Shown here: positions 3,605 to 11,868 of the stretch, one piece after another
Layout: every line of letters begins with the position of its first letter
Numbering within the stretch: the stretch's first letter is position 1
IMG/VR virus record: IMGVR_UViG_3300029319_000264
Location: 1 to 32,115 of that record
DNA: 32,115 nt
DNA from: a virus
Direction: 5' to 3' (one strand)
Program-made: the position numbers and the translations under genes
Notes under the pieces: model-generated
What the model saw: only the letters and a program-made list of their open reading frames with translations
Databases searched by the model: none
What the model was told of the DNA's origin: nothing

Positions 3605-3971
3605 CTATCTCAACCTCTTGCTTTGTCTTCGGTATAAACATCGCCCGCCGCCGCTCGAGTTTCCAAGCAGCCGCTTGCCAGCTACCTGCCATCGCTGCCT
3701 TCTCAATCATCGCGAGCCATCGGTTGGTTGCCTCGCCCTCAACCTCTTTTATGCGCCTCAAAAATTCATTGTATTTTTTACTCGTTGCCAAGTTGGGCTG
3801 CTCTTCTGCTTTCTTTTTTTGCTCGTAATACCAGCCCTCGCTGAACCCAGCACAGCCGCACGCGTCCTTGATAGGACACCCCAGCCGAATCGCTTTCAAG
3901 AATCTATCTTGCATCTCCTCGGTGAGAATTTTGGGCTTGCGCCCCGCGTTGCTTTTGCGCTTCTTAGACAT
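3522..3971 (-). CDS. Terminase small subunit (TerS)
   Basis: TerS recognises the packaging site and delivers DNA to TerL. This 149-residue protein starts very basic (KKRKSNAGRKPKI). A helix-turn-helix-like segment follows at about residues 16-50, with a GCPIKDACGCAGFSEGWYYEQ core of the kind that reads '..I..ac..aGis..T.y.W'. A helical middle (FLRRIKEVEGEATNRWLAMIE) and the RRAMFIPKT stretch near the C-terminus are also typical. Its start lies 8 bases inside the end of the ParB-methyltransferase gene, and its last 83 bases also encode the TerL N-terminus. Position directly before TerL supports the call. Confidence 0.85.
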   Translation of the reverse strand: MSKKRKSNAGRKPKILTEEMQDRFLKAIRLGCPIKDACGCAGFSEGWYYEQKKKAEEQPNLATSKKYNEFLRRIKEVEGEATNRWLAMIEKAAMAGSWQAAAWKLERRRAMFIPKTKQEVEIDAKVETTDAKKRLLDKLAQLAERSGEE

Positions 3972-5139
3972 TCACTAGCTCGGCAGTCTGGCCGGTGAAA
4001 TCTTCCCAGCGTTTTATTATCACGTCACAATATGCGGGGCTCAATTCCATGCCATAGCACTTGCGGCCTGTTTGCTCGCAAGCGATTAGGGTTGAGCCGG
4101 AGCCAAGGAACCCATCGAACACGATTCCGCTGGCCTGTACGTATTCCAGCACCTTGCCGACAAGTGCAGCGGGTTTTTGTGTTGGATGAACCCTCTTTTC
4201 CCTCTCGCCGCTTTGCACCATACCCATCCATACGTGGGTAAAGATTTTTGCGCGTTTATCGGCAGAGGTCCACGCAAGCTCAAAATCGGAAAAATTATCG
4301 TCCCACTGCCTACCCTTCTTATCCCAGACCAGCCAGCAGCGCGATTCCGGGAGGACCGTTGCGTAATAGTTACATCCCCATATAACGCCAGGGGCTTTTC
4401 TCGCGTGCATGTCTATAAACTTTTTCGCCGTGTCGGTTGAATCGTCGTTCATTATCGGCGCGTAGTTGTTGGCGAGCCCTGGTGCATTCGGGCGCGGGCC
4501 GAAAGACTTTGAACCGCCAGCCACCGAAACAGGAACAGCGTCGATGCCGTACGGGGGATCTGTATGAATGAAACCGAAAGGCTCTCCATCCATCAGCGCT
4601 GCTACATCCTCAGCGCTGGTACTATTCCCGCACATCAACCGGTGATCCCCAAGCTGCCAAATCTGCCCCGGTTGCGCGGTTGGATCTTCCGGCACCTCTG
4701 GCACTTCATCGGGGTCTGTATTGCCCTCGGTGATGCCAGTCACCTCATCGACTAACGCCGTTAGCTCTGCGTCACTAAAGCCCGCCGCCTCTACCAGCGC
4801 CTCGTCTTCAATCTGCAAAGCACTAAGCTGCTTTGCCAGCGCCTCTTCATCCCACTCGGCAAGCTCGCCCGTGCGGTTATCGGCTATCGCGTAAGCCGTA
4901 GCCTCTGAGCCCTCGAGCACGGTCTTGACGATGTTGATTGAATCCCAGCCCAGAGCTCGTGCGGCCGTGAGCGTGCCATTGCCCGCAATGACGATACCCT
5001 TCTCGTTAACCACGATGGGCTTCTGTTGCCCAAAGCGCCGAAGGCTCGACTTAATGGCGTCCAGGTTTTTCGAGTCATGCGCTCGAACGTTCGCCGGGTC
5101 GCAATCCAGCTCGTCTATCATCACCCGCTCAACCTGCAT
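3964..5139 (-). CDS. ParB-like nuclease domain fused to N4/N6 DNA methyltransferase
   Basis: The 391-residue protein joins two domains. Residues 1-100 are ParB/Srx-like, with GNGTLTAARALG at 53-64 as the ParB box. From about 160 onward it is an amino-group DNA methyltransferase with the catalytic DPPYG at 194-198, HPTQKP at 318-323, and the SAM-binding DGFLGSGST at 342-350. DPPY preceding the SAM loop is the beta-class order. In phages such fusions usually sit beside the terminase, as here, and probably protect DNA from host restriction or mark it. The target sequence cannot be read from the protein. The gene overlaps the upstream nuclease gene and TerS by about 10 bases each. Confidence 0.9.
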   Translation of the reverse strand: MQVERVMIDELDCDPANVRAHDSKNLDAIKSSLRRFGQQKPIVVNEKGIVIAGNGTLTAARALGWDSINIVKTVLEGSEATAYAIADNRTGELAEWDEEALAKQLSALQIEDEALVEAAGFSDAELTALVDEVTGITEGNTDPDEVPEVPEDPTAQPGQIWQLGDHRLMCGNSTSAEDVAALMDGEPFGFIHTDPPYGIDAVPVSVAGGSKSFGPRPNAPGLANNYAPIMNDDSTDTAKKFIDMHARKAPGVIWGCNYYATVLPESRCWLVWDKKGRQWDDNFSDFELAWTSADKRAKIFTHVWMGMVQSGEREKRVHPTQKPAALVGKVLEYVQASGIVFDGFLGSGSTLIACEQTGRKCYGMELSPAYCDVIIKRWEDFTGQTAELVNV

Positions 5140-6273: not shown

Positions 6274-7221
6274 CTACGGGGTAAACTCGCCGTCCTCGTC
6301 CGGAATATCACACAGCCCCCACATCTGACATCCTCGGTCTGATTCTGACTCAGGTGTAAAAAGCTGATATTGCTTGCCCCCCCTCGACGTCTTTGACCAC
6401 TTCACCACTTTGTCGATATCCCAATATCCCTTATTGTCTTTTGCCAAAAAAAACTTTGGCATCTGTTTATCTGCTTGCACTTCCTCGTCATTTTTTTGCC
6501 GTCTGATCTGAACGAGTTCTTCAACATCCCTCTCAAGATCTCGGATTAATTTAATCCTTTCGGGTGTATCTTCTGCCACGGCTCGAATCTCATCTTTTCG
6601 AGACATGATGCAGGGCCAACAGCCGACTCGTTTAGCCGGGTTTTTGTCCTTTAGATAAAGCGGAGCGGGTCTAAGGTTATGCTCTGCATGTATCGCCACA
6701 ACATCAGCGACCCGCCAAGTAATTAGCGGTCGCCAGGTGGAAAGCCCTTCAACTTTAAAGGGGCTATCGTCATCCCACTCCTCAAATCTTGAGCGTGCTA
6801 CACTTTCATGCGCCCTGATGCCGACTGCATTGATAGGAGGCTTTCCGTGTTTTTTTGCTATTTGCTTAACGAAGCTTTCTTGCGGCTTGATCTTCAGTTC
6901 AATCGTGCAGAATCGAAATCTACGCGACGGAAAAAATGCTTTTTTGCGCACTAGGTCTGGCATTCCCCCAGGGTATTTTTCAGATCTGACAATGGCTATT
7001 TCTCCGAATAATGGCCGCAGAACCTCGTTGACGTATTTTGTTAAATCACCATGCTCCCACCCTGTGTCTGCCATCACAAAATAAAGCGGATTGGTTTTTC
7101 TGATCTCCAGATTATGGATCAGATAAAGCGCCATGGCGGTTGAGTCTTTTCCACCGGAGATACTGGCAACAACTGGCCTTCCGCTCTCTTTCACAAATCT
7201 TGCCCATTTACTAATTTCCAT
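6274..7221 (-). CDS. PAPS-reductase / DndC-like PP-loop protein
   Basis: This 315-residue protein belongs to the PP-loop ATP pyrophosphatase superfamily. SISGGKDST (20-28) is the nucleotide-binding loop. RFRFCTIELKIKP (101-113) has the R..CT...K..P pattern shared by PAPS reductases and the DndC sulfur-transfer protein. Further cysteines lie in GCWPC (C201, C204) and near the C-terminus (C298, C304), so a metal or Fe-S cluster is possible. Its start overlaps the end of the prim-pol gene by 11 bases, with GGGGTG before the ATG. Many phages carry such a protein without a known substrate; sulfur-containing DNA or RNA modification is more plausible here than sulfate assimilation. Confidence 0.82.
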   Translation of the reverse strand: MEISKWARFVKESGRPVVASISGGKDSTAMALYLIHNLEIRKTNPLYFVMADTGWEHGDLTKYVNEVLRPLFGEIAIVRSEKYPGGMPDLVRKKAFFPSRRFRFCTIELKIKPQESFVKQIAKKHGKPPINAVGIRAHESVARSRFEEWDDDSPFKVEGLSTWRPLITWRVADVVAIHAEHNLRPAPLYLKDKNPAKRVGCWPCIMSRKDEIRAVAEDTPERIKLIRDLERDVEELVQIRRQKNDEEVQADKQMPKFFLAKDNKGYWDIDKVVKWSKTSRGGKQYQLFTPESESDRGCQMWGLCDIPDEDGEFTP

Positions 7222-9651: not shown

Positions 9652-10395
9652 TCATATCTCTCCTTTTAATTGTTGAATTCGCAGCCCCACTTGGTACGCG
9701 ACCTGGGGCACCACTGCATTGCCTAGGGCTCTGAGCATAGCCACCCTGCCGGGAATCCCATCATCCACCGGACGAACCGAACCGAGAGCTTGCCAGGGGT
9801 ACCGAGCATCCCCAAGCGAGCCATGCTGTCGAGGCTGTGCCTTATCTTCCCCGTGCGCCCTGCCGCGCCGCCCTGATTGCTCCCGTAGGATGCCGCCGCC
9901 GGAGTCGGCAGCACGCCGAAGCCATGCGATGATAAACACTCTGTCGCGTCGGTGGCACGCCCCGACGGCTGCCGCGCTGATAGTATCCCATTCCGCATCG
10001 TACCCGCACCTGGCAAGCTGGCAGAGTACTTCGGACAATCCCCGTCCAGTGAGCGCTGGAACGTTTTCAATGATGACGAATCTTGGCAATACCAAGCGAA
10101 TGAGCCTAGCAAACTCCCTCCAAAGGCCGGAGCGCTCCCCAGCCAGCCCGGCACCGCTCCCTGCGACGCTGATATCTTGGCAAGGGAACCCCCCGCAGAT
10201 GAGCTCTGCGCCAGCAATATCCCCAGCTCTAACTGTTCTGACATCCTCAAACCTCCTCGCATCGGGCCAGTGCCTTGCCAGCACAGAACGGCAGAAAGCA
10301 TCCTGCTCGACTTGCCAGAGCGTCTCACCCACCCCGGCAGCCTCAAGCCCTAGCTCAAGCCCACCAATTCCGCTAAACAAGCTGCAAATCTTCAT
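9652..10395 (-). CDS. dcm: DNA (cytosine-5) methyltransferase
   Basis: The protein transfers methyl from SAM to C5 of cytosine. Motif I is SLFSGIGGLELGLEAAG (5-21). The catalytic loop GGFPCQDIS puts Cys72 in motif IV, IIENVPAL (108-115) is motif VI, and the C-terminal LRALGNAVVPQVAYQVG is motif X. At 247 residues it is shorter than most C5 methyltransferases, and the target-recognition part is a brief Gly/Arg-rich stretch (about 165-215). That stretch is also read in another frame by the nested ORF at 9723-10346. The gene is first in the minus-strand replication operon, behind a near-consensus promoter. Self-protection against restriction is the likely role. Confidence 0.93.
   Translation of the reverse strand: MKICSLFSGIGGLELGLEAAGVGETLWQVEQDAFCRSVLARHWPDARRFEDVRTVRAGDIAGAELICGGFPCQDISVAGSGAGLAGERSGLWREFARLIRLVLPRFVIIENVPALTGRGLSEVLCQLARCGYDAEWDTISAAAVGACHRRDRVFIIAWLRRAADSGGGILREQSGRRGRAHGEDKAQPRQHGSLGDARYPWQALGSVRPVDDGIPGRVAMLRALGNAVVPQVAYQVGLRIQQLKGEI
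9723..10346 (-). CDS. Nested ORF in a second frame of dcm, resembling the WLMGFPxGW phage family
   Basis: This 207-codon ORF lies wholly inside dcm on the same strand, shifted by one base. Its translation contains SSSLKTFQRSLDGDC, then LPGAGTMRNGILS, GVLPTPAAASYGSNQGG, GKIRHSLDSMAR, and near the C-terminus VRWMMGFPAGW. From memory these are, in order, the hallmarks of a phage protein family of unknown function often found next to phage Dcm genes ('SLKTSQ.SL ... PR.GTM.nG ... LPTP.A ... lnP.wvEWLMGfP.GW'). The match spans several separate motifs, so chance is unlikely. The same DNA encodes complete Dcm motifs in the other frame. Whether both are expressed is unknown; the proposed ATG at 10346 has no obvious strong ribosome site. 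Confidence 0.5.
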   Translation of the reverse strand: MRLPGWVRRSGKSSRMLSAVLCWQGTGPMRGGLRMSEQLELGILLAQSSSAGGSLAKISASQGAVPGWLGSAPAFGGSLLGSFAWYCQDSSSLKTFQRSLDGDCPKYSASLPGAGTMRNGILSARQPSGRATDATECLSSHGFGVLPTPAAASYGSNQGGAAGRTGKIRHSLDSMARLGMLGTPGKLSVRFVRWMMGFPAGWLCSEP

Positions 10396-10439
10396 CCTGT
10401 GCCCCGTACTTTTACCTCAAAAAAAACCTATCGATGTTG

Positions 10440-10487: not shown

Positions 10488-10509
10488 GACAATGTGCCCA
10501 GAGGACCAA

Positions 10510-10529
10510 CGAACGAACGAAAGGAAAAA
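10510..10529 (+). repeat. CGAA-repeat leader and ribosome site, copy 1
   Basis: Three CGAA units (10510-10521) run into AGGAAAAA just before the ATG at 10532. This is the first of five related leaders in the early operon. Confidence 0.6.
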
Positions 10530-10902: not shown

Positions 10903-10926
10903 CGAACGAACGAACGAAAGGAAAAA
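10903..10926 (+). repeat. CGAA-repeat leader and ribosome site, copy 2
   Basis: Four CGAA units (10903-10918) followed by AGGAAAAA lie just before the ATG at 10929. The block is nearly identical to copy 1 except for one more unit. Confidence 0.6.
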
Positions 10927-11394: not shown

Positions 11395-11416
11395 CGAACG
11401 AACGAACGAAAGGGAA
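11395..11416 (+). repeat. CGAA-repeat leader, copy 4
   Basis: Four CGAA units (11395-11410) followed by AGGGAAG lie just before the ATG at 11418. Confidence 0.6.
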
Positions 11417-11417
11417 G

Positions 11418-11789
11418 ATGATGACTAGAGCAATTTACACTTATCGATACCGAAGCGGAACCGAAACCAGAGAGTTTCGACTTTCAGAGCGCAGCCATGG
11501 AAAGTATGTGTTCCATCATATTGACCACAACGGCCAGCCTCACACCGGGCGTTACTTCACAGATAATCTTGAAAACGTGGACCGGTGGGTGTTTTCGCGC
11601 TTGGAGGAGCTTTACAGGGTGGACACTGTTTTTCCTGGTCGCGCCCCATCCTCATCCCTTTATGTCGATGTGCACTACCGAGACGGTCGCACATTTACCA
11701 TCAAGTGCAGCCTTCTGAGTATCGACACGTTTTACGACGGAGTAGTAGAAGGCCCCCGAGGGGCTCGTGTCATTTCCAAAAACTTCTAG
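11418..11789 (+). CDS. Hypothetical early protein (123 aa)
   Basis: I do not recognise this product. The start is rich in aromatic residues and likely beta-structured (AIYTYRYRSGTETREFRLS). A His-rich patch (YVFHHIDHNGQPHTG) and a C-terminal beta-like part (SLYVDVHYRDGRTFTIK) follow. No catalytic motif or membrane segment is visible. Two ATGs in tandem (11418, 11421) follow the CGAA leader. The stop is followed by the second tandem hairpin element. Confidence 0.72.
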   Translation: MMTRAIYTYRYRSGTETREFRLSERSHGKYVFHHIDHNGQPHTGRYFTDNLENVDRWVFSRLEELYRVDTVFPGRAPSSSLYVDVHYRDGRTFTIKCSLLSIDTFYDGVVEGPRGARVISKNF

Positions 11790-11844: not shown

Positions 11845-11868
11845 CGAACGAACGAACGAAAGGGAAAA
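11845..11868 (+). repeat. CGAA-repeat leader, copy 5
   Basis: Four CGAA units (11845-11860) run into AGGGAAAA before the ATG at 11871. It lies directly behind the second tandem hairpin element. Confidence 0.6.

Follow-up and report, generated by a model that had tools for sequence, protein, structure and literature searches.

Does the gene annotated as a DNA cytosine methyltransferase (dcm) in this phage encode a second protein in another reading frame and, if so, what does that protein contribute to the enzyme? The window, a virus record analysed over its full length of 32,115 bases, reads as a tailed phage, judging from recognizable genes for terminase, head morphogenesis, the major head protein, RecT, and tail proteins. 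Within dcm, on the minus strand, the +1 frame is open over 207 codons (10346–9723) and carries a series of motifs from SLKTFQRSL to WMMGFPAGW, in the order reported by the first-pass annotation. The same bases are read as SVRPVDDGIPGR in the Dcm frame and as VRWMMGFPAGW in the nested frame, as had also been noted there; the TTG at 10346 is merely the first possible start. The locus very probably encodes a C5-methyltransferase that is split into alpha and beta chains as in M.EcoHK31I; its beta chain would be made from an internal start of its own. The assignments are as follows:

9652–10395 (−): alpha, the annotated dcm, 247 aa (PF00145, E 1e-40 over residues 1–159; phrog_363, E 2e-71)
10177–10185 (−): alpha motif IV, catalytic PCQ (from sequence)
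10060–10068 (−): alpha motif VI, ENV (from sequence)
9940–9954 (−): alpha motif VIII, HRRDR (from sequence)
9706–9735 (−): alpha motif X, LRALGNAVVP, immediately following beta motif IX (from sequence and the fixed IX–X spacing in relatives)
10252–10257 (−): putative Shine-Dalgarno sequence of beta, AGGAGG, within the dcm codons ARRF (perfect; 7-nt spacer to the ATG at 10244)
9723–10244 (−): beta, the nested +1-frame gene, 173 aa from ATG 10244 (phrog_1008; stop depletion; substitution pattern)
9984–10076 (−): conserved block of beta, SSLKTFQ...GTMRNG, over alpha motifs VI–VIII (beta alignment)
9789–9911 (−): target-domain segment of beta, LPTPAAASYGSNQGG... (homologous same-frame segment in the single-chain relatives L024, L028, L029, and L124)
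9735–9785 (−): beta motif IX, SVRFVRWMMGFPAGWLC (its place between target domain and motif X in single-chain relatives; weak match to DRM, 4onq)

Alpha carries motifs I–VIII, including the PCQ and ENV expected of PF00145, and motif X. A motif IX in the same chain is likewise expected of that family; its pattern is absent from the Dcm frame of the window dcm, and the complete motif set is found only in the alpha and beta pair, where WMMGFPAGW of beta represents motif IX. The nested frame of the window matches the phrog_1008 profile (E 5e-13 and, in a second comparison, E 2e-13).

In the proposed enzyme, alpha would provide the cofactor-binding and catalytic motifs I–VIII and the C-terminal motif X, and beta, with a separate start (ATG 10244) and Shine-Dalgarno sequence inside the dcm coding sequence, would provide the target-recognition segment and motif IX, filling what alpha is without. 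Both the distribution of the motifs and the internal start signals are evident in the sequence itself; we infer that beta is translated and that the two chains would join to form a single active enzyme that works by the usual mechanism of catalysis and whose target sequence would be recognized by the segment in beta. As an orphan phage enzyme, it would probably modify the phage DNA against host restriction.

The phage also encodes a ParB-like domain fused to a DNA methyltransferase domain (3964–5139, −; phrog_498, phrog_620) and thus carries a second methyltransferase. A PAPS-reductase-like gene (6274–7221, −; PF01507, phrog_424) is located near the methyltransferase and adjoins a primase/DUF3987 gene. 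A 21-base leader, ACGAACGAACGAAAGGAAAAA, occurs in four plus-strand copies (10509–10529, 10906–10926, 11398–11418, and 11848–11868) with 0–2 mismatches, none being expected by chance; the first two copies end within a few bases of the start codon (ATG) of a gene on the plus strand, as a ribosome-binding leader shared between genes would.

Selection on the nested frame

The +1 frame was open over 207 codons in none of 5000 synonymous reshufflings of the window dcm, which had a mean of 5.7 stops in this stretch, and the 173 codons from ATG 10244 were open in only 1 of 5000. Because reshufflings almost never open the frame, a chance origin is excluded. Among 71 distinct related dcm genes, the +1 frame contains 8 stops between motifs VI and X versus 172.4 expected, and 67 of the genes lack any +1 stop (8.3 expected), whereas the +2 frame of the same region shows no depletion (471 versus 499 expected). 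In the seven single-chain relatives used as a control, +1 stops are present in every gene (23 versus 33.8 expected).

The substitution patterns point in the same direction. In 30 independent pairs, the difference at four-fold sites is 0.296 in the overlap, defined as the region from ENV-24 to just beyond motif VIII, versus 0.439 upstream, which corresponds to a ratio of 0.68 (95% interval 0.55–0.82). Downstream of motif VIII, a frame-neutral nucleotide alignment of 32 independent pairs yielded 465, 260, and 278 differences at dcm codon positions 1, 2, and 3, respectively. Most differences fall on dcm position 1, which is the wobble (third) position of beta, indicating that this segment evolves as coding sequence of the nested frame and that the target domain in the Dcm frame is a passenger. 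The first-pass annotation had proposed dual coding and had seen in it an explanation for the short, Gly/Arg-rich target domain of Dcm; the former proposal is supported by both the +1 stop depletion and the substitution pattern, the latter by the substitution pattern, and the codon-position comparison that it had suggested for both frames reveals a nested frame that is constrained beyond motif VIII. At the level of sequence, both frames are demonstrably under selection; the nested frame is real and usually missed in annotation.

It is highly improbable that the open +1 frame is a mere by-product of codon bias and relatedness and not a gene. When alternate-frame translations were compared with synonymous shuffles in a profile test, the +1 frame won in 51 of 51 cases but the +2 frame also in 47 of 51, as such a by-product would lead one to expect; since this result implies that shared ancestry inflates the test, it is not counted as proof. 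Codon choice for ENV showed no GAA/GAG skew and only a mild enrichment of AAC. The stop depletion, however, is specific to +1 and far weaker in the single-chain relatives, and the substitutions follow the wobble position of beta.

Motif IX and the target domain

The single-chain relatives (L024, L028, L029, and L121–L124) combine motifs I–VIII, the target segment, an EWLM.LP.GH-like motif, and the GNG(V/A) of motif X in one frame; the target segment of most of them contains LPTPxAxSYGSNQGG. Counted back from the GN of motif X, the EWLM motif is 18 residues away, which is where motif IX belongs. The modelled structure of L124 can be aligned with M.HhaI over its whole length (Z 22.3 over 247 residues, 1–381 versus 10–326), its target domain being of low confidence. 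In a profile comparison, the target segment of the nested family joins that of the single-chain family (probability 98.7).

Motif IX is present in the nested frame of all 71 non-monomer genes (64 by the strict pattern, 7 by eye) and in the Dcm frame of none of them; the one gene with this motif in the dcm frame is the single-chain L024. The distance from the Pro of motif IX to the GN of motif X is 9.67 codons and constant in 52 of 64 relatives. Together, the homology with the single-chain enzymes and the distribution of motif IX indicate that alpha obtains its missing parts, the target segment and motif IX, from the nested protein. The first-pass annotation had assigned the nested frame to a phage protein family of unknown function that accompanies cytosine methyltransferases; the association with these enzymes holds (phrog_1008), but its function can be assigned, since it carries what this Dcm is missing, namely the target segment and motif IX.

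A comparison of the beta profile with PDB sequences returned only motif IX of plant DRM (4onq), a match that makes sense but is not significant. The AlphaFold model of beta alone, folded from an alignment that left out three rows from annotated phage records, has a pLDDT of only 57, and no claim is therefore made about its fold; an alignment that combined alpha, beta, and the single-chain forms put beta in the wrong place and was not used. Beta matched no Pfam family. Nothing corresponding to its N-terminal half is present in the single-chain relatives seen, which suggests that this half arose by overprinting.

In L028 (970–2400), L033, and L045, several LPTPxAxD-like repeats follow one another in tandem within the target-domain segment; they might act as recognition modules. 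L053 was considered as a single-chain exception and ruled out; its motif IX is in the beta frame, and the beta ORF stops before motif X.

Probable internal initiation and alternative readings

Beta of the window probably starts at ATG 10244, giving 173 aa. A Shine-Dalgarno sequence of at least 5 nt followed by an ATG in a +1 frame open to motif VI is present in 18 of 70 relatives versus 1.3 expected, and the corresponding count for the +2 frame is 0 versus 1.5 expected; the remaining relatives may rely on weak Shine-Dalgarno sequences, GTG or TTG starts, or coupling. The beta starts cluster approximately 59 and 25 codons upstream of ENV, and in several relatives (L052, L054, L076, and L118), a +1 stop immediately precedes the Shine-Dalgarno-led ATG at −25. 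Both the enrichment of such starts and the stops directly upstream of several of them favour internal initiation over frameshifting. The start of alpha (10396–10420, −) has a weak Shine-Dalgarno sequence (GGGGCACAGG before the ATG) versus the perfect one of beta, a contrast that might set the ratio of the subunits.

Programmed ribosomal frameshifting after motif VIII, which would produce a single alpha–beta fusion chain and no separate beta, is improbable. It would agree with the existence of single-chain homologues and with the order of the target-domain segment and motif IX behind motif VIII, but it conflicts with the conservation of beta far upstream of motif VIII (the SLKT...TMRNG block) and with the enriched internal starts, several of which directly follow a +1 stop. 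Moreover, motif X remains at its fixed spacing in the alpha frame and would be missing from a fusion that ends at the beta stop. Even less probable is that beta is a separate phage protein of other function that merely overlaps dcm. The unmatched N-terminal half and the absence of a Pfam family would fit such a protein, whereas the absence of motif IX from alpha and its presence in beta in every non-monomer and the union of the same segments in single-chain relatives argue against it, as does Mycobacterium phage JangDynasty (L006), where the beta frame, annotated as a DNA methylase, contains motif X as well.

Distribution and relation to known split enzymes

A search of phages with the nested protein yielded matches on the same strand and in the same place as a dcm, and nearly all relatives found share both the position inside dcm and the +1 frame. 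The consensus of the nested family has matches in 654 of 50,697 phage records, and all 67 aligned beta proteins match phrog_1008. An automatic classifier detected the second frame at +1 in each of 80 viral loci chosen by their Dcm protein alone and placed in the same nested +1 class 70 of the 77 loci that the nested family retrieved from bacterial and archaeal genomes (many phyla, one archaeon); these counts are descriptive, because the beta profile was built partly from the same loci and the single-chain L123 was mislabelled as nested. Four of the 77 loci are without an alpha match; here, the beta match is near the end of the locus, and alpha may be cut off.

The family nearly always occurs nested, partly overlapping, or, as its C-terminal half, within a single-chain enzyme, and the suggestion of the first-pass annotation that it may exist elsewhere as an overlapping gene is supported. 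The database search that it had called for recovered nested copies and single-chain counterparts of the C-terminal half, but no truly stand-alone copies among the relatives found; their absence does not refute dual coding because the evidence lies in codon-level selection. Some records, such as Pseudomonas phage phPA-G (L004), have the nested frame as their annotated gene, others have the Dcm frame, and in JangDynasty, both frames are annotated as overlapping DNA methylases, the nested one carrying motif IX together with motif X. In L034 (725–1757), three different frames appear to be used, one by alpha, one by a short beta consisting of target segment and motif IX, and one by a tail resembling motif X; this is possibly a decayed or error-containing copy.

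M.AquI and M.EcoHK31I are exceptions to the single-chain C5 enzymes; the large subunit of M.EcoHK31I comprises motifs I–VIII, motif X, and a predicted target domain, and its small subunit motif IX only, whereas the small subunit of M.AquI comprises motif IX and a portion of the variable region (PMC3404938). The window resembles M.EcoHK31I (E. coli, YGGCCR), at the sequence level, in the combination of a large chain with motifs I–VIII and X but no IX and a smaller chain with motif IX, and also in the nesting of the small-chain gene within the large-chain gene in another frame. Lee, Kam and Shaw reportedly found in 1995 that the beta gene of EcoHK31I lies wholly within alpha in another frame and encodes 176 aa (173 in the window). 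M.EaeI is a two-polypeptide C5-methyltransferase of the same type. By contrast, the target domain of M.EcoHK31I has been placed in the large subunit, which is itself a prediction, whereas homology and the substitution pattern place that of the window in beta. Unlike M.EcoHK31I, the window enzyme would be a phage orphan, and the likeness between them concerns the motif layout.

M.AquI (CYCGRG) is, like the window enzyme, naturally split into alpha and beta, but its beta also carries motif X, which in the window is in alpha; JangDynasty resembles AquI, the window does not. The library label of phrog_1008, “DNA methyltransferase”, is general and mentions neither nesting nor a subunit role. The hidden HNH endonuclease of the ShiLan type is likewise encoded out of frame within a phage methylase gene that it overlaps but, unlike beta of the window, represents a homing insertion unrelated to methylation (PMC11855218).

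The open literature searched contained no report of the nested alpha/beta arrangement as widespread in phages. Although the kind of enzyme is already known, as a rare one described in the 1990s, its breadth (654 phage records and many bacterial phyla) appears to be under-recognised. There is a slightly better than even chance that a large class of phage and bacterial “dcm” genes is organised predominantly by nested dual coding; the annotated Dcm would then be a single subunit of an alpha/beta enzyme that requires both chains, the “target domain” in its frame would be a passenger, and the N-terminal half of beta would have been overprinted on the catalytic motifs VI–VIII.

Many phage and prophage annotations as “DNA cytosine methyltransferase” appear to describe half an enzyme. 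Predictions of specificity from the Dcm frame would read passenger sequence, and a dcm cloned after recoding of its codons would lose the second subunit. Among long overlaps between phage genes on the same strand, the locus is also an unusually clear example, and it belongs to a deep family in which selection on two frames is measurable.
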